23,062 bases of DNA from a virus. The stretch lies in the IMG/VR virus record IMGVR_UViG_3300000227_000003, positions 52,173-75,234 of that record; one strand, written 5' to 3'. Every line of letters starts with the position of its first letter. Position 1 is the stretch's first letter. The notes beneath the pieces are model-generated. The model ran no database searches and had not been told where the DNA came from. It saw only the letters and a list, made by a program, of their open reading frames with translations. Made by a program: the position numbers and the translations under genes. Of the stretch, positions 1,091-20,392 are shown one piece after another.

Positions 1091-1128
1091 TAAATAAAAA
1101 GTATTTATTATCAAGAAATATATATAAA

Positions 1129-4614: not shown

Positions 4615-4639
4615 GTATTTATATTAAAATATTAATATT

Positions 4640-5921: not shown

Positions 5922-6242
5922 ATGGCAAATTTAGTTGTTGATTTATTAAACCATTTAACATCTGAAAAGATGTATGAACAAATGGAATTGGTTCGTTTAG
6001 CACAAGAACCCAACATGTGTTATAGAGACAAAATAACACAAATAAGTAACAAATTAGAAAATATTTTTAAATTGAATGGTCAAATTGATTTGGTTAATAA
6101 ATATTTTACTGAAACATCACAACCATCGCAACAACCACCGCAACAACCACCGCAACAACCACCGCAACAACCACCGCAAGCACAGCAATCATTTGTTCAA
6201 AATTCAAATCCCATGCATCATGGACATACGCATATTGAATAA
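5922..6242 (+). CDS. Small protein with QQPP tandem repeat and His-rich tail
   Basis: A 106-residue protein. The first 70 residues look helical and soluble. A linker follows made of five QQPP-like units (about residues 68-87), encoded by four perfect 12-base repeats. It ends with HHGHTHIE, a histidine cluster that could bind metal. No known domain is recognised. The repeat is probably a flexible spacer whose length can change by slippage. It has its own candidate promoter and a terminator after it, so it may be expressed alone. Confidence 0.7.
   Translation: MANLVVDLLNHLTSEKMYEQMELVRLAQEPNMCYRDKITQISNKLENIFKLNGQIDLVNKYFTETSQPSQQPPQQPPQQPPQQPPQAQQSFVQNSNPMHHGHTHIE
6129..6176 (+). repeat. Four perfect 12-bp tandem repeats (caacaaccaccg)
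   Basis: Four uninterrupted copies of caacaaccaccg, preceded by a partly matching unit. The unit is C-rich in a genome of very low GC and encodes Gln-Gln-Pro-Pro in frame, so gain or loss of a copy would not break the gene. Confidence 0.9.
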
Positions 6243-10377: not shown

Positions 10378-10471
10378 AATTTAATATTTTATGGTTCTTT
10401 ATTTTCATTTAAAAAAATAAATTACTATTATAAATACTTTAATATATTAAATTAATACAAATTATTCTGAA

Positions 10472-11181: not shown

Positions 11182-11760
11182 TTAGTTAAATTTTTTTACA
11201 CTAAATTTATTGTTTTTTTCTGGAATTAATAAAAAATATTCAAATCTAGTGGATATATAACACGTATCATTTATTACTTCAAATTTAAAAATAGATAATT
11301 TCAAAATAATTTCATCACCTATTGAAATTATTGTAGAACAATCATCAGGACTTTCATTATTATATCTGTGAAATACAGCCTCTTGAAAATTTAACGCATC
11401 ATAATAATAATTTGTTATTATATTATTTGTGGCTAATTGCCAATTACTATTTTCATTATCTGTTATTTCTCTATAATATAAATTTAAATTTCTATTTCCT
11501 TTAAAACAAAGACCCATATAATAACTATCATTACTAATTAAATCGTATGATAATAAATATATTTTATTGTTGTATATGAAATGTACATGTTGTATTTCAG
11601 GTATAAACGATATTTTATTTAATGTTGTAACGTTTTTTAAATCTTTTGTTGTTACCCAATTAAATTCATTATATTGAGCAACTTTTTGAATTTGTTTTTG
11701 TCCAAAAATTTGAAATGTGCAAATGTAAAATATTGCTAATGTAATTAATATTTTTTTCAT
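11182..11760 (-). CDS. Secreted protein, unknown function
   Basis: A 192-residue protein with a clear Sec signal peptide, MKKILITLAIFYICTFQIFG, followed by QKQ. ATG 11760 was chosen over an upstream one at 11799 because it begins directly at the signal peptide and because a promoter-like motif covers 11777-11810. The mature part is beta-rich, with many Tyr and Asn (IQHVHFIYNNKIYLLSYDL) and two or three Cys. No named domain is recognised. A phage protein with a signal peptide may act in the periplasm or at the outer membrane, for example in exclusion of other phages or in lysis, but that is a guess. Confidence 0.7.
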   Translation of the reverse strand: MKKILITLAIFYICTFQIFGQKQIQKVAQYNEFNWVTTKDLKNVTTLNKISFIPEIQHVHFIYNNKIYLLSYDLISNDSYYMGLCFKGNRNLNLYYREITDNENSNWQLATNNIITNYYYDALNFQEAVFHRYNNESPDDCSTIISIGDEIILKLSIFKFEVINDTCYISTRFEYFLLIPEKNNKFSVKKFN

Positions 11761-11776: not shown

Positions 11777-11810
11777 TTATAATACGAAACAATAATCATT
11801 TTGTTACAAA
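11777..11810 (-). promoter_or_regulatory. Promoter motif TTGTAACA-N12-TTTCGTATTATAA, copy A
   Basis: On the minus strand, TTTGTAACA (11810-11802), 12 bases, then TTTCGTATTATAA (11789-11777). The same two boxes with the same 12-base gap occur at 13715-13748 and 16385-16417. The gene for the secreted protein starts 17 bases downstream. Confidence 0.6.
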
Positions 11811-11867
11811 CAAAATAATAAATTTTTTTTTATACTGATATTTTTTGTTAAATTATAGGCACTAATT

Positions 11868-11905
11868 AAAAAAAATGCCAATAATTATTTGTTATATTAT
11901 TGGCA
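11868..11905 (-). terminator. Rho-independent terminator (minus strand)
   Basis: A perfect 10-bp stem (11896-11905 with 11876-11885) and ten-base loop, followed on the minus strand by eight T. It ends the operon that runs from 13679 down to 11934. Confidence 0.8.
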
Positions 11906-11933
11906 CATATGCTATTAATAGCAATTAATATTA

Positions 11934-12167
11934 TTAATCGGTTAATGTATATTCTTCTGCTATCATAACTAATATTTTTGATGGTGGTGCTATATTTCTA
12001 TTATTAATCTCATTTTTTATTAATTCAGTTACATTATGAGAAGTAAATATTTGACCAATATCCATCCAAGTTCTATTGGGTATTTTTAATATCAATTCTT
12101 CCGTTTCACTATCATATATGCTAACGGTTATTCTAGATGTGTCTTTACTGTATTTCATTTTTTTCAT
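11934..12167 (-). CDS. Small conserved phage protein, unknown function
   Basis: A 77-residue soluble protein with a beta-rich N-terminus (TSRITVSIYDSETEELILKI) and a C-terminal part ending ILVMIAEEYTLTD. No cysteines, membrane segment or catalytic motif. It overlaps the end of the upstream membrane protein gene by 23 bases; a second ATG at 12158 would reduce the overlap to 14. It is the last gene before the minus-strand terminator. Confidence 0.65.
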   Translation of the reverse strand: MKKMKYSKDTSRITVSIYDSETEELILKIPNRTWMDIGQIFTSHNVTELIKNEINNRNIAPPSKILVMIAEEYTLTD

Positions 12168-12429
12168 TATTATTTGTTAATATATTACTATAATTATTAA
12201 TATTCGTTAATAAATTAATCGTACCCTGTAAAACAGTAAATATGTTTTGAAATACAATTTTTATTATCCAAATAAGAATGACCCATTGAAAATAAGTTAA
12301 ATAAAAATTTATTGTTGGATATATTACAAGATTCCAACAAACTGAAACAAATAATGCTATTAATAATGATTCAAAAAAATAGAACACTATGAATGGCATA
12401 TAATAAATGAAAATTTTTAGTGATTTCAT
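12145..12429 (-). CDS. Small membrane protein with two hydrophobic helices
   Basis: A 94-residue protein. Two transmembrane segments are visible: about residues 6-34 (IFIYYMPFIVFYFFESLLI and onward) and 44-62 (YFQWVILIWIIKIVF). A polar Asn-rich tail follows. It lies between a DEDDh exonuclease gene (10 bases upstream) and a small soluble protein gene that it overlaps. The topology is compatible with a holin, as is that of the membrane proteins at 4171 and 6322, so none can be named with confidence. Confidence 0.65.
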   Translation of the reverse strand: MKSLKIFIYYMPFIVFYFFESLLIALFVSVCWNLVIYPTINFYLTYFQWVILIWIIKIVFQNIFTVLQGTINLLTNINNYSNILTNNNEKNEIQ

Positions 12430-12439
12430 AATGATATAT

Positions 12440-13018
12440 TTATTTAGTTATTAATGATTTCCAAATTTCGCTGCAATATTTTATTTGATACTTACAATCA
12501 TCAATTGGATTGTGTCTAACACCTAAAAATTGAATATTATTTTTTATGTGTGGTGCTAATGAAACTAATGTTCTAACATCTCTTTCATTACGATAATTCC
12601 ACGGTGTTTTTAATTTACATAATTGATATGCGTTATCAAGCAAACCTAAATCATACTTTGACCCATTGCTCCAAATTTGAATATCTTTCAATTCATCAAT
12701 GAAAATTTTAAATTTCAACAATGCATTATATATATCAATAGTATGATTACATATTAATTTACGAGAATTTTCATCTTGATTTAACCACCAATAAAAAGTA
12801 TCACCATCAATTTTAAAATTATAATCTATACTTGAATTAATATCAATTGTTTGATAAAATTCTCTACCTGTAATACCAGTTGATATATCAAATTCAACAG
12901 CACCTATGGATAATATTATCGAATAACTTTTAGTACCTAAAGTTTCAATATCAACCATCAAATGTCCCAAATTATCATCGTTTTTCATTTTTTTTATTTT
13001 TTTTATGAAAATATCCAT
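12440..13018 (-). CDS. DEDDh-type 3'-5' exonuclease (Rv2179c-like family)
   Basis: A 192-residue protein with all catalytic motifs of the DnaQ-like DEDDh fold: MVDIETLGT (Asp23, Glu25), SNGSKYDLGLLDNAY (Asp123) and RHNPIDDC (His169, Asp174). The FYWWLNQD segment near residue 75 and the TLGT motif match the phage/mycobacterial 3'-5' exoribonuclease family (Rv2179c-like, Pfam ExoRNase-type). It removes nucleotides from RNA or DNA 3' ends using two metal ions; the substrate here is not known. The start may be ATG 12988 (MKNDDNLGHL) instead of 13018, which would shorten the overlap with the small gene upstream from 44 to 14 bases. Confidence 0.85.
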   Translation of the reverse strand: MDIFIKKIKKMKNDDNLGHLMVDIETLGTKSYSIILSIGAVEFDISTGITGREFYQTIDINSSIDYNFKIDGDTFYWWLNQDENSRKLICNHTIDIYNALLKFKIFIDELKDIQIWSNGSKYDLGLLDNAYQLCKLKTPWNYRNERDVRTLVSLAPHIKNNIQFLGVRHNPIDDCKYQIKYCSEIWKSLITK

Positions 13019-13115
13019 TTAATAATAATTGTAATACTGTAAATACAATAACAATAAATGTGACTATTCCTATAATAATAAACCATCCCAAATAATTATT
13101 AGTTAATATAATCAT
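12975..13115 (-). CDS. 46-residue single-span membrane protein
   Basis: A short reading frame found by translating the gap between two larger minus-strand genes: it starts at ATG 13115 and stops with TGA at 12977-12975. Residues about 11-33 form one transmembrane helix (WFIIIGIVTFIVIVFTVLQLLL), preceded by a short polar N-terminus with GW, and followed by a basic tail (HKKNKKNEKR). That positive tail would stay in the cytoplasm. It fills a gap that is otherwise 103 bases, and it overlaps the exonuclease gene by 14 or 44 bases depending on that gene's start. Single-span proteins of this size include some holins and antiholins, but no family can be named. Confidence 0.55.
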   Translation of the reverse strand: MIILTNNYLGWFIIIGIVTFIVIVFTVLQLLLNGYFHKKNKKNEKR

Positions 13116-13121
13116 AGTATT

Positions 13122-13679
13122 TTATTTTTGTGGATAAAGTAATTTATTATATTTATATATTTTAATATTTTCAAACCTACCATTCCATAATTTATCATTA
13201 TTATACAATGAATTATCATTAATTGTTTGTAAAAAATCAACGCTATTTGAATATTTTTTGTTTTTTACATCATGAACAATCCACATTCCATTAATTTTTG
13301 AAAATTTACTTTCAATCCATATAGTATCACCATATTTAATTTTGCCTTTAAATCTGTTTTCATTATTGCTAAATAATTTATTTCGATATGAACAATTTAA
13401 CATATTTTGACTTATTGCAATCCATCTTAAATTAGATGCATTATTAACATTAATTATTGAGCCATCAGCAGTAATATTTGGAGTATCATCACATTGATGT
13501 GTTGTTGGATTATATATACTACCCCAAATATTGTCATATAATAATATTCTATTATTAAAATAGTCTAATATTTTTTTATTATTTAAAATATCACATTCAC
13601 TTATATTATAATTAAATAATATAAAAATTATTATCGGTATTTTTTTAAAATAAAAAATTTTGTTTATTTTTATTTTCAT
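13122..13679 (-). CDS. Secreted 3D/RlpA-like double-psi beta-barrel protein
   Basis: A 185-residue protein with an N-terminal hydrophobic signal or anchor (residues about 13-24, KIPIIIFILFNY). The mature part matches the 3D/RlpA-like double-psi barrel used in lytic transglycosylases: YNPTTHQCDDTPNITADGS (about 56-74), RWIAISQNML (85-94), FKGKIKYGDTIWIES (110-124), WIVHDVKN (Asp137) and SVDFL (Asp148). These acidic residues are those expected in the active cleft. It probably acts on the glycan part of peptidoglycan in the periplasm. It is the first gene of the minus-strand operon and lies just downstream of a promoter motif. Confidence 0.75.
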   Translation of the reverse strand: MKIKINKIFYFKKIPIIIFILFNYNISECDILNNKKILDYFNNRILLYDNIWGSIYNPTTHQCDDTPNITADGSIINVNNASNLRWIAISQNMLNCSYRNKLFSNNENRFKGKIKYGDTIWIESKFSKINGMWIVHDVKNKKYSNSVDFLQTINDNSLYNNDKLWNGRFENIKIYKYNKLLYPQK

Positions 13680-13714
13680 TTAAATTCCAAATATATTAAA
13701 ATTTAATTTTTTTG

Positions 13715-13748
13715 TAAATATACGAAATTTTTCATAAAATGTTACAAA
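13715..13748 (-). promoter_or_regulatory. Promoter motif TTGTAACA-N12-TTTCGTATATTTA, copy B
   Basis: On the minus strand, TTTGTAACA (13748-13740), 12 bases, then TTTCGTATATTTA (13727-13715). Spacing and boxes equal those of copies A and C; here the -7 box is closest to TAnnTTTG. It precedes the 3D-type secreted protein gene by 36 bases and lies in the divergent gap 13680-13824. On the plus strand the same gap holds a TATTTTTG box at 13767-13774, without a convincing -33 partner. Confidence 0.65.
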
Positions 13749-13824
13749 CATTTTTATATTTTTTTTTATTTTTGCAAAAAAAATTACATATTCAACTTAT
13801 TTATTATAAATAAAAATTTTAATT

Positions 13825-14112
13825 ATGTTTAATGATTTATATTATGATATAATGAAAGGTACACCATATAGTATCTTTTTAAAAGAATTAATACAATCTG
13901 GTTTTTCGCCAATTGGTATATCACTATTATTTAATGAAGAAGTTTTTATATTTAAAGATATTAAAGAAACAAAAAGAGCAACAATTAAATTTCCATCATG
14001 TGGATTATGGTATGATATTGAATCTTGGAATATTACAAGAAATGAATATGTTAGAATAGTTTATGGTAATGATGAAAATTCTGCACCAAAGGTATATTGG
14101 TTGGATAAATAA
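13825..14112 (+). CDS. Small conserved phage protein, unknown function
   Basis: A 95-residue soluble protein, first gene of the plus-strand run after the divergent gap. It begins MFNDLYYDIMKGTPYS and ends with VRIVYGNDENSAPKVYWLDK, a motif-like C-terminus. A middle part, FIFKDIKETKRATIKF, is beta-rich. No membrane segment or metal site is seen. It is 8 bases upstream of the ATP-grasp gene and is probably cotranscribed with it. Function not recognised. Confidence 0.65.
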   Translation: MFNDLYYDIMKGTPYSIFLKELIQSGFSPIGISLLFNEEVFIFKDIKETKRATIKFPSCGLWYDIESWNITRNEYVRIVYGNDENSAPKVYWLDK

Positions 14113-14120
14113 TAAAAAAA

Positions 14121-14840
14121 ATGAAATTTATTATACAAAAAAACGATAATGAAATCAATTATGATTATTGTTTTATTTTGGTAAAATCAATAAAAATTTA
14201 TAATTTATATTATACAAACAATAAAATAAAATATATATATTATAATAAATTTAGATTTAAACCCTATCATAAGGAATATATTCCTGTCGGTGACGTGAAT
14301 TTTGTTAATTCGTTTTTATATCAATTTTTTAAAATTAAAATAAAACCAATTAATATCCCAATAGAATTGTATGGATTCTCTGGTAAGAAAATTATTAATG
14401 ATACACATAAAATATTAAATAAATTATCTGGTGAATATATTGTTAATAGTAATAGTTCTGTAACTGGTTTTTTCGGCATTGTTAATTGTGATAATAAACC
14501 TGTAAATGTTCCAATTGATACCTATCAAATATCACAACATATTAATTTTAATAGTGAATGGCGTGCTTTTGTCTATCAAAAGCATTTGGTTGGTTTATAT
14601 AATTATTGGGGAGATTTTACAAAATATCCTAATGTTAATAGAATATTAACAATGATTAATTCCTATAAATCATCACCATGCGCATACTGCTTAGATGTTG
14701 GTGTTGATGATAATAATACTTATATTATTAGTGTAAATGGTTTTTATTCTTGTGATTTATATGGATTTTCTAATTATTATATAATACCCATTATGTTTAG
14801 TAAATGGTTTCGTGAATATGTGAAGTATAATTCGTTATGA
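14121..14840 (+). CDS. ATP-grasp domain protein
   Basis: A 239-residue protein. The C-terminal half resembles the phage/bacterial ATP-grasp families that join a carboxylate to an amine or thiol using ATP: EWRAFVYQKHLVGLYNYWGDF (only the core is given; Glu147, Arg148), CAYCLDVGVD (about 187-196, Asp192) and YIISVNGFYSCDLYGF (about 201-216). In the last motif ATP-grasp enzymes normally have a Mg-binding Glu before the Val-Asn, and here it is Ser204, so the site may be weakened. The substrate is unknown. Its stop codon overlaps the next start (ATGA), so the two are translationally coupled. Confidence 0.7.
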   Translation: MKFIIQKNDNEINYDYCFILVKSIKIYNLYYTNNKIKYIYYNKFRFKPYHKEYIPVGDVNFVNSFLYQFFKIKIKPINIPIELYGFSGKKIINDTHKILNKLSGEYIVNSNSSVTGFFGIVNCDNKPVNVPIDTYQISQHINFNSEWRAFVYQKHLVGLYNYWGDFTKYPNVNRILTMINSYKSSPCAYCLDVGVDDNNTYIISVNGFYSCDLYGFSNYYIIPIMFSKWFREYVKYNSL

Positions 14841-15142
14841 TTAATAATGCTTGTTATAAATTAATATATTATCTTGATGGTAATATTAATGAATTAGTTG
14901 TTGAGGTGAAATTGGTTTATAATAAAATGCCATTGTATAATGGTGGTAATATATATAAAGGAATTGTAATTATTGATGGTATTATTTGTAATGATTATAA
15001 ATTAGATAATATTGTAAATGCACTATTTGCAGTAAATGAAATAGGCCGTGATTTAAAAAATAAATTAAAAGAAAAATATAGAAAAGAAAAAAAAAGTTTT
15101 AGATTAAAAAAAGAAGAATCGTTTAAAATCGATAATGATTAA
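14837..15142 (+). CDS. Small protein coupled to ATP-grasp gene, unknown function
   Basis: A 101-residue protein that starts within the stop codon of the ATP-grasp gene (4-base ATGA overlap). The N-terminal 75 residues are beta-rich (YKLIYYLDGNINELVVEVKLVY). A very basic helix follows (NKLKEKYRKEKKSFRLKK), then a short acidic end. The coupling suggests that the product works with, or at the same level as, the ATP-grasp protein, for example as its substrate, though nothing in the sequence proves this. Confidence 0.65.
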   Translation: MINNACYKLIYYLDGNINELVVEVKLVYNKMPLYNGGNIYKGIVIIDGIICNDYKLDNIVNALFAVNEIGRDLKNKLKEKYRKEKKSFRLKKEESFKIDND

Positions 15143-15196
15143 TATTATTTAAATTATGTTAGTATTTAATTTAAAGATTAATAATATTTTACTATT

Positions 15197-15775
15197 ATGA
15201 CCATTCGTAAATTCTTTAATATTTTTTCCAAAAAAGAATCTGAATTAATTCAATTAGATATCGAATTAATTTTAAATAGAAGTAAAATTATAATGAATAT
15301 GGAAAATAATGAACAACAACAATATAAAAAATATTATGATAACACATGTCCCAATTGTAATAATTCTAATAGTAAAACTATTGTTAATAAAATTATAAGT
15401 CAACAAAATAATGTTTATATTAATTTTGCATTATATAATGACGTAGATAAATTTAATAATATAAACAAATCCAATTTTATCGAAATAAATCATTGTAATG
15501 CATGTGGTAATGAATGGTTTAAATTTAAAACAAAAACACTTAACGTATCAACAATTATTACTGTTTTATTAAAATATATTGCATATAATATTGAACATCC
15601 AAATGATGATATTTTGGATTGGAAAAAAGAAATTATACAACAAGTATTTGATGGTTGTCATGCAGAATCAATTTATAGATTAAAAAAACAACACGTAAAA
15701 TATTTACCACCTCATATTAATAATATTTTATCATTGTATAATTTAAGAAAATTATATAAATCTGTTTTCGATTAA
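15197..15775 (+). CDS. Zinc-ribbon phage protein
   Basis: A 192-residue protein with a split zinc ribbon: CPNC at residues about 51-54 and, after a roughly 45-residue insert, HCNACGNEWFKF at about 97-108. Four cysteines plus a nearby His would bind one zinc. The rest is helical, ending in a Leu-rich segment. Zinc ribbons of this kind are common in phage proteins that bind nucleic acid or RNA polymerase, but the insert between the knuckles is long and no specific family can be proven. It has its own 54-base upstream gap. Confidence 0.7.
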   Translation: MTIRKFFNIFSKKESELIQLDIELILNRSKIIMNMENNEQQQYKKYYDNTCPNCNNSNSKTIVNKIISQQNNVYINFALYNDVDKFNNINKSNFIEINHCNACGNEWFKFKTKTLNVSTIITVLLKYIAYNIEHPNDDILDWKKEIIQQVFDGCHAESIYRLKKQHVKYLPPHINNILSLYNLRKLYKSVFD

Positions 15776-15858
15776 AAAAAATTCTTTTTACTATTAATAT
15801 TTTATTATATTTTTACTATGTATTTTTCGCATTATTAAATTATAATTATACTTTATAT

Positions 15859-16377
15859 ATGACTAAATTAATTGCAATTGCTGCTGTTAGTATTGATGGT
15901 ATTATTGGTGTTGACAATGAAATACCATGGTATATACCTGAAGATTTTAATCATTTTAGAAAAACAACAATGGGTAGTTGCATTGTTGTTGGTTATAATA
16001 CATATTTAACACTACCACAAAAAGCATTTGAAAAACGAATGTATTTGGTACTAAATAATCAAATTTCACATATAATACAATTAAAACCAAATGTCTTTCA
16101 AATACCATCAATTGATATGCTTATGCAAATTATTACAAATAGTGATTTTAAATGTGATAAGGTGTTTGTTGCTGGTGGTGCGATGATTTATGAATCACTA
16201 TTAAATTTATGTGATGAAGCCGTAATTACTTGGATTAATAAAAAAATTGAATGGGGAAATAAAAAATTTCCAATGCACATTTTATCAAATAATTTTAATC
16301 CTATTGATATTTCTTCTAATTGGTGTGTTAGTAAAAATCGTATCGAATATAAAATAATTCATTATACTAAAAATTGA
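15859..16377 (+). CDS. folA: Dihydrofolate reductase
   Basis: A 172-residue protein covering the whole DHFR fold. It reduces dihydrofolate to tetrahydrofolate with NADPH, feeding thymidylate synthesis for phage DNA. Motifs: IAAVSIDGIIGVDNEIPW (cofactor and substrate loop), IPEDFNHFRKTTMG with the catalytic acid Asp, IVVGYNTY, VFVAGGAMIYESLL (the GG of the NADPH site) and AVITWI. All key residues are present and length is typical. A phage-encoded DHFR in an A+T-rich genome matches a high thymidine need. No thymidylate synthase is visible in the window. Confidence 0.93.
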   Translation: MTKLIAIAAVSIDGIIGVDNEIPWYIPEDFNHFRKTTMGSCIVVGYNTYLTLPQKAFEKRMYLVLNNQISHIIQLKPNVFQIPSIDMLMQIITNSDFKCDKVFVAGGAMIYESLLNLCDEAVITWINKKIEWGNKKFPMHILSNNFNPIDISSNWCVSKNRIEYKIIHYTKN

Positions 16378-16384
16378 TGTTTTG

Positions 16385-16417
16385 TTGTAACAATATAATA
16401 TTTTTTTCGTATTATAA
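16385..16417 (+). promoter_or_regulatory. Promoter motif TTGTAACA-N12-TTTCGTATTATAA, copy C
   Basis: TTGTAACA (16385-16392), 12 bases, TTTCGTATTATAA (16405-16417). It is on the plus strand, 67 bases before the helicase gene. Its boxes and gap length are identical to copy A on the minus strand. Confidence 0.65.
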
Positions 16418-16484: not shown

Positions 16485-17912
16485 ATGAAAAACATTTCCG
16501 ATGATAAATTATGTCTACCAAATGGTAATATAATAACATTTAATGATGAGCAATATATTGGAATAAAAAAAATTTTGAACTGGTTAAGTAATAATCAAAA
16601 TAATTACTTCACATTAGCGGGATATGCTGGAACTGGTAAAACCACAATTGTAAAAAAAATTATTGATAAATATTCTTTTGGTACTATTATTAGCGCACCT
16701 ACACATAAAGCAAAAAAAGTTATTGTTAATAAAACAGGTATGGGTGGTGCTACTTTACAATCATTATTAGGGTTAAGACCTGATGTGAATCTTGATGATT
16801 TTAATCCAAATGACCCTAAATTTAATTCAATTGCTTTGCCAAAAATTAATGAATATAATTTAGTGATTATTGACGAAGCATCTATGATTAATTTGGAATT
16901 GTTTGAGTTAATTAAGTCAAAAACTTTAAATACAAGAACTAAGGTGTTATTTATTGGTGACCCTGCGCAAATACCACCAATCGGAGAAAATGAAAGCGTT
17001 GTTTTTTATGACAATGATATTGATAAACATTGGTTAACTAAAATTGAAAGACAAAATATACGAAATCCATTAGTATTAGTATATAATGCTCTTAGAAATA
17101 ATTTAGACAAACCAAATGATTGTTTTGAAAGATTTTCAAAAATAAATGAGTATGATGAAGGTGTTATTTTTACTAATGATAAAAATTTTTTCCGTAAAGA
17201 ATTAATTGATAAATTTAATTCTATTGATTTTAAAAAAAATATTGATTATTGTAAGTTAATTGCTTGGAGAAACCAAACAGTATTAAATCTTAATAGAATA
17301 ATTAGAAATGAATTGTATGGAAAAAATGTTGATATCATTGAAGTTGGTGATATCTTAATGGGATATAGAAGTATTATTGATGAAAGATATAATATTAATA
17401 TTATTGATAATGGTGCTGATTATAGAGTAGTTGAAAAATCAAATTTAGAAACTAACAAATACGATATTAAAGGATATAATGTTAAATTACAAGAAGTAAT
17501 TGAAAATTATGAATATCGATATGTCGATATTTTTATTGTTGATATTAATGATTTTGATAACTTACATTTATATGCAGAATTACATGACTTTCTTAGATAT
17601 AGAGCCAAATCAAATAAAAAATTATGGACTGATTATTATAAATTTAGACGTAATAATATTTTATTATCTTCAATAACTCATTTTAAAAATGGTGATAATC
17701 GTAATTCACATGATATTATTTCTAAAGATATGGATTTTGGATATGCTATTACTGGCCATAAATCACAGGGTAGCACATATTCACACGCTTTTATTATGGA
17801 AAATGACATTGATGCTAATTGGCTTGTTAAAGAACGTAATCAAATTAAATATGTTGCATTAACCAGACCAAGTATATCTGCAATTGTATTAACCGATAAA
17901 ATTAACAATTAA
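16485..17912 (+). CDS. SF1B DNA helicase, Dda/RecD2-like
   Basis: A 475-residue ATP-dependent helicase, close in length and motif order to T4 Dda, which unwinds DNA 5' to 3' at replication forks. Seen in order: Q motif FNDEQ (19-23), Walker A GYAGTGKT (46-53), motif Ia SAPTHKAKKV, Walker B VIIDEASM, motif III FIGDPAQIPPIGE, then a UvrD_C_2-like C-terminal domain with GYAITGHKSQGSTYSHAF (motif V) and YVALTRPS (motif VI). No motif is damaged. It belongs to the DNA metabolism module with DHFR and has its own promoter-like motif, so it may be expressed at a different time from its upstream neighbours. Confidence 0.92.
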   Translation: MKNISDDKLCLPNGNIITFNDEQYIGIKKILNWLSNNQNNYFTLAGYAGTGKTTIVKKIIDKYSFGTIISAPTHKAKKVIVNKTGMGGATLQSLLGLRPDVNLDDFNPNDPKFNSIALPKINEYNLVIIDEASMINLELFELIKSKTLNTRTKVLFIGDPAQIPPIGENESVVFYDNDIDKHWLTKIERQNIRNPLVLVYNALRNNLDKPNDCFERFSKINEYDEGVIFTNDKNFFRKELIDKFNSIDFKKNIDYCKLIAWRNQTVLNLNRIIRNELYGKNVDIIEVGDILMGYRSIIDERYNINIIDNGADYRVVEKSNLETNKYDIKGYNVKLQEVIENYEYRYVDIFIVDINDFDNLHLYAELHDFLRYRAKSNKKLWTDYYKFRRNNILLSSITHFKNGDNRNSHDIISKDMDFGYAITGHKSQGSTYSHAFIMENDIDANWLVKERNQIKYVALTRPSISAIVLTDKINN

Positions 17913-20337: not shown

Positions 20338-20392
20338 TTTTATTTTTTTCAGTATTTATTATTGTATTCAATATTAATTATTTCTATTTCTT

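Follow-up and report, generated by a model that had tools for sequence, protein, structure and literature searches.

The phage record and its three candidate promoter copies

The stretch of DNA analysed here (the window, 23,062 nucleotides) corresponds to bases 52173-75234 of an 87,899-base IMG/VR virus record. This record is listed in IMG/VR as linear and without end repeats, and may be a fragment of a larger genome; the G+C content of the phage is about 21%. It encodes a baseplate wedge protein, SbcC/SbcD-like nucleases (gp46/47-like), a primase, a DNA polymerase, a Dda-like helicase and a sigma factor whose gene adjoins the gp46/47-like genes, and on the basis of this gene set we assign it to the T4-like tailed phages. 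The first tblastn matches were to crAss-like phages, but a crAss-like identity was rejected, since the gene set is T4-like and crAss-like records hold only 0-1 copies of the motif described below. The window also encodes, at 5922-6242, a short protein with a repeated PPQQ run from a tandem repeat; of all repeated words in the record, those of this repeat are the most extreme.

Exact matches to TTGTAACA-N12-TTTCGTAT are present in the window at 11782-11809 (minus), 13720-13747 (minus) and 16385-16412 (plus). The initial annotation had placed three copies here on both strands, and all three prove to be exact and to lie in gaps before genes. When the boxes are cut back to the bases conserved across other phages, the motif becomes TGTAAC-N16 or 17-CGTAT. 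The copies and the genes behind them are as follows.

11783..11808, minus strand: candidate ECF-type promoter, copy 1; -35 TGTAAC at 11803-11808, 16-base spacer, -10 CGTA at 11783-11786; the -10 region reads CGTATTATAA; matrix score 25.6
11182..11760, minus strand: gene behind copy 1, secreted protein; likely start at the inner ATG 11760, MKKILITLAIFYICTFQIFG...
13721..13746, minus strand: candidate ECF-type promoter, copy 2; -35 TGTAAC at 13741-13746, 16-base spacer, -10 CGTA at 13721-13724; matrix score 24.4
13122..13679, minus strand: gene behind copy 2, ORF for a 185-aa protein with an N-terminal hydrophobic segment
16386..16411, plus strand: candidate ECF-type promoter, copy 3; -35 TGTAAC at 16386-16391, 16-base spacer, -10 CGTA at 16408-16411; the -10 region also reads CGTATTATAA; matrix score 26.0
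16485..17912, plus strand: gene behind copy 3, Dda-like SF1 helicase, 475 aa (PHROG 325, E 4e-87; Pfam AAA_30)

All three copies point at their gene, the likely ATG of which follows the -10 box at a distance of 22, 41 and 73 nt. For the gene behind copy 1, the listed ORF start overlaps the promoter, so the inner ATG at 11760 (MKKILITLAIF...) is the probable start. At the syntenic place in a related phage, G002, there is a gene with weak homology to it (28%, E 0.005), and before this syntenic gene stands a counterpart of copy 1 with a spacer of 17 (59683-59708, minus). Copy 2 heads a minus-strand gene block, as does a copy in G002 at 64705-64730 (minus); the 185-aa protein itself gave no Pfam or PHROG match. 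Copy 3 has no conserved counterpart before the G002 helicase. Two of the three window copies therefore have counterparts at syntenic places in G002, where the proteins of the region are only 24-50 percent identical.

The chance expectation of the exact dyad is 2.2e-4 under an order-2 Markov model of the whole record on both strands (log10 P about -11.8). In four shuffled records, the most extreme dyads had a log10 P of only -6.3 to -8.6, and the sole dyads of the real record that surpass the motif come from a tandem repeat. Searching the 87,899 bases with the two boxes and the 12-base gap returned no further exact match, while a loose search allowing 3 mismatches was uninformative, with 3 matches seen versus 1.4 expected. 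The signal of the three copies is thus carried by their exactness and not by a loose count. For a two-box matrix whose training set comprised other phages exclusively, the null is 0.08 matches per shuffled record at a score of at least 16. The window copies score 24.4-26.0, and weaker copies were found elsewhere in the record at 87010-87036 (minus), 87133-87158 (minus) and 76802-76827 (plus). The record total is six copies, which form no array. All six (three exact and three weaker) lie outside genes. The proposed exact gap of 12 bases holds for the three window copies but not for relatives, which also use one base more.

Motif architecture and distribution

Exact copies of TGTAAC-N16-CGTA number 13-58 in 14 phage contigs, compared with 0-1 for the reversed pattern. 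The exact and reversed counts are, respectively, 40/0 in G006, 23/1 in G008, 35/0 in G009, 30/0 in G013, 33/0 in G020, 52/0 in G022, 30/1 in G023, 58/0 in G229, 33/0 in G231 and 44/0 in G234. Some contigs carry long one-strand arrays, G022 having a copy about every 500 bases. The copies are intergenic, near an ATG and almost always directed towards the gene, at a median distance to the ATG of 28 nt (157 targets), and the target proteins are small (median 107 aa). Two genes behind the promoter, L162:6645-7814 (minus) and L230:13103-14266 (plus), have starts that by eye resemble adenylosuccinate synthetase; these genes, in two phages, possibly encode PurZ, for synthesis of base Z.

The spacing is narrowly constrained. 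In the 134.7 kb read of the 324,744 bases of G006, gaps of 16 and 17 occur 44 and 8 times, respectively, and all other gaps from 12 to 20 not at all; gaps other than 16-17 are nearly 0 in the remaining phages. The consensus common to ten phages is tTGTAAC-N16-CGTATAAt, with both boxes conserved. Over 183 distinct copies, the positions after CGTA are T90 A76 A80 T58 percent, giving a -10 consensus of CGTATAAT. Several G006 copies, for example 324590-324614 (minus) and 322440-322465 (minus), lie within a GC-rich hairpin with a run of T after it (CCCCTTGTAACAATCGCAAGGGGTTTTCGTAT), so that a single element might serve both as terminator of the preceding gene and as promoter of the following one. 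The G006 genome may be complete, because the same promoter sequence at both ends (36-63 and 324589-324616) suggests an end overlap.

Promoters of ECF sigma factors are characterized by AAC at -35, CGT at -10 and a spacer of 16-17. The phage motif has the AAC core in its -35 TGTAAC, CGT in its -10 CGTA and spacers of 16-17 only. Judged by these sequence features, the motif is an ECF-type promoter family (group 4 sigma) of T4-like phages. No earlier description of a TGTAAC/CGTAT phage promoter was found in the literature, of which subscription journals were thinly covered.

The initial annotation had instead aligned the copies with the -33/-7 promoters of the Bacteroidota primary sigma, with TAACA and TTTCG as additions to that consensus. 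TTG and TA are indeed present at a spacing of 22, and copy 2 reads TATATTTA. The boxes of this sigma are TTTG at -33 and TAnnTTTG at -7 (PMC6847099), however, and the -7 box is in register in only four of the 183 copies, the consensus being CGTATAAT, and in none of the three in the window; TAACA and TTTCG belong to the core of the motif. These phages also have separate promoters of the primary type, TTG-N16-23-TAnnTTTG being found five times versus one and eight times versus none in reversed controls. That the motif copies are themselves strong primary-sigma promoters is in our view barely credible. It is also highly improbable that the two boxes are the binding site of a repressor or activator rather than a core promoter: two half sites at a fixed spacing would suit such a site, and some G006 copies overlap inverted repeats, but the motif is neither a palindrome nor a direct repeat, is nearly always directed at a gene, has the shape of an ECF promoter and is linked to an ECF sigma gene.

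Candidate sigma factors

Two classes of phage sigma factor were found, A (gp55-like) and B (SigW-like). Class B matches ECF models, with SigW among the best and an E of 3e-19 to the solved SigW structure 5wuq. Its genes are present in G006, G008, G009, G013, G020, G022 (two) and G023, as well as in G229, G231 and G234, which were chosen first by motif count, the class B gene then being sought and found. Contigs with at least 20 copies carry class B in 10 of 11 cases, versus 0 of 12 for those with fewer (Fisher 1e-5, which overstates independence because the compared phages are related; G009 and G020, two of the ten class B contigs, share one sigma sequence). Other ECF-like sigmas take the place of class B in G010 (21 copies) and G014 (13), and no class B was seen in G012 (18 copies), G016 (16) and G017 (8). 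No class B gene was found in the window's own 87.9-kb record, which may be partial. These exceptions, and the lack of a promoter array in the record, speak against class B as the reader of the motif.

The linkage extends to gene order. Full position lists, available for six phages, put the class B gene at the head of the array in every case: the next promoter copy on its strand follows at 1-868 bp, and 3-27 copies are found in the 15 kb downstream of the gene, compared with 0-1 upstream. As judged by eye, the TAnnTTTG of a primary-type -7 box precedes the ATG in four class B genes, and this hints at a cascade in which host sigma turns on class B and class B turns on the arrays.

The residues that would read the -35 box can be compared with those of SigW, the -35 element of which is read as T-36 G A A A C X T T T (consensus TGAAACXTTT), with Arg175 on G-35, Thr171 and Thr168 on A-34 and Lys170 on G'-31 (PMC6713349). 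Several of the phages read TGTAACCTTT or TGTAACATTT at -35, one base off this consensus; where SigW promoters have A at -34 (TGAAAC), the window copies and the whole family have T. In class B, Lys170 and Arg175 are kept in 10 of 10 sequences and residue 171 is Val, Gly or Ala in 10 of 10. Class B thus lacks the hydroxyl at 171 that contacts A-34 in SigW, which fits T at -34; the link between residue and base is a correlation only, because about one third of unrelated host ECFs likewise lose Ser/Thr at this residue.

The only sigma gene in the window's own record (45320-45907 of the record) is of class A, and its product contains both sigma regions, so that class A has to be weighed as the reader of TGTAAC-N16-CGTA. 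We consider this very unlikely: at the positions of Lys170, Thr171 and Arg175 of SigW, class A has Ser/Cys, Asn and Tyr/His in 12 of 12 sequences, and on these three residues it was rejected as reader. Moreover, G007 has class A without the motif, and G022 and G023 have the motif without class A. Class A, which is encoded beside gp46/47 and primase in these phages and in the window's record, goes instead, although not cleanly, with a second promoter-like box, GTATTTAT (often AGTATTTAT), which is close upstream of genes and has no -35 box. In the window this box is found at four positions.

1101-1108, plus strand: GTATTTAT box
4615-4622, plus strand: GTATTTAT box
10430-10437, minus strand: GTATTTAT box, 151 nt upstream of its gene
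20352-20359, plus strand: GTATTTAT box

AGTATTTA is enriched in upstream regions, with 12 sites versus 0.8 expected in the window's phage and 14 versus 0.5 in G002, mostly 13-40 nt before ORFs and with no upstream box. Genome-wide enrichment of the box tracks class A in most phages; the assignment is provisional, because some enrichment is also seen in G022 and G023, which have no class A. GTATTTAT is likely to be a late promoter and the target of class A.

The main rival to class B is a host ECF sigma, for example of the envelope-stress type, that could read these promoters, the phage mimicking the regulon of its host. With a stringent 18-base version of the motif, 84,980 species gave 31 matches; roughly half of these are in Bacteroidota or near relatives, and the matches on the Bacteroidota side are mostly in gaps before genes. 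A phylum scan with TTTG added to the pattern was too strict to be informative and gave no match. One exact copy lies 23 nt before an ECF sigma gene of Dysgonomonas, the product of which has Val at 171. A host sigma would also account for the phages without class B, and it is the only rival that needs no missing gene in the window's phage. We nevertheless regard it as unlikely. Host genomes have one or two, at most three, copies each even with a looser pattern, compared with up to 58 in the phages, and the linkage to class B is left unexplained. Furthermore, no such promoter precedes 30 other host ECF genes taken at random, and general autoregulation of host ECF genes by the motif was rejected. 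The operon behind the exact copy in Dysgonomonas sp. UBA5412 (L188) encodes the sigma, an anti-sigma-type membrane protein and a larger secreted-looking protein. Judged from the cellular occurrence of the motif and the primary-type promoters in these phages, the host of the window's phage probably belongs to the Bacteroidota.

Proposed mechanism and comparison with known systems

In our view, the most consistent interpretation is that the sites are promoters for the host RNA polymerase core with a SigW-like ECF sigma, most likely phage class B, to which we give a probability of roughly 0.68. Sigma region 4 would read TGTAAC, and region 2 would read and melt CGTATAAT, 16-17 bases apart. The class B sigma would be expressed early, from a promoter of the ordinary host type, and would then turn on gene blocks in which most genes are small and many have a promoter copy to themselves; late genes would probably use the gp55-like class A sigma at the -10-only box GTATTTAT. 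The motif, with its spacing, position and conservation, and its linkage to class B sigma genes are direct observations; recognition of the motif by class B, its early action and the location of a class B gene of the window's phage outside the present record are inferred. For the three window sites the sigma would be a phage class B, as judged from the relatives, or a host ECF sigma. The initial proposal of a promoter family that marks a class of genes and is read by host polymerase with a phage factor thus stands as regards the family, which is real, and is probably correct in mechanism. A more speculative extension, which we think rather improbable, is that a common promoter code serves viral and host ECF sigmas: a Bacteroidota stress sigma would start these phage genes with infection as the signal, and the phage sigma would in turn switch on host stress genes.

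These results bear on gene timing in uncultured T4-like jumbo phages, probably of Bacteroidota, by giving a promoter that is recognizable by its sequence, a candidate sigma for it and a second candidate sigma-promoter pair for late genes. The residue-level rule that connects base -34 with residue 171 is directly testable, and the pair could find use as an orthogonal sigma-promoter system for Bacteroidota.

A known case of a phage-encoded sigma that diverts the host polymerase to viral promoters, as part of a cascade, is the middle sigma gp28 of SPO1, from which the present system differs in its ECF-family sigma, its ECF-type boxes and its occurrence in T4-like phages probably of Bacteroidota. 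T4 late transcription uses the sigma gp55 and an TATAAATA box. The phages studied here resemble T4 in having a gp55-like sigma beside the gp46/47 and primase genes and a -10-only box (class A and GTATTTAT), while their second, two-box ECF sigma system is not known from T4; the TGTAAC-N16-CGTA motif, with both boxes conserved, is unlike a T4-type late promoter, which has a -10-only TATAAATA-like box and no -35.

SigW promoters have -10 CGTA and a spacer of 16. The SigW regulon of Bacillus subtilis shares these with the phage family, together with a -35 of TGnAACnTTT (PMC6713349), and SigW is the nearest solved structure to class B. The phage system differs in having T rather than A at -34, Val, Gly or Ala rather than Thr at residue 171, a phage-encoded sigma and 20-58 promoters in one virus. 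The 'RNA polymerase sigma-W factor' of crAss-like phages is an ECF sigma 25-32% identical to class B, but has mostly Ser/Thr at 171 and Lys rather than Arg at 175. TGTAAC-N16-CGTA promoters are missing from crAss-like phages (0-1 copies) and from RM378, although both have related ECF sigmas. Group 2 jumbo phages, the same broad group as the phages studied here, all carry sigma factors, described as minimal and RpoD-like in a review (PMC7824862), in the text of which the term 'ECF' does not appear and the sigma passages give no promoter family. Phage sigma factors with their own promoters are known; the pairing of an ECF sigma with tens of promoters in one virus is, to the extent of our searches, a new form.
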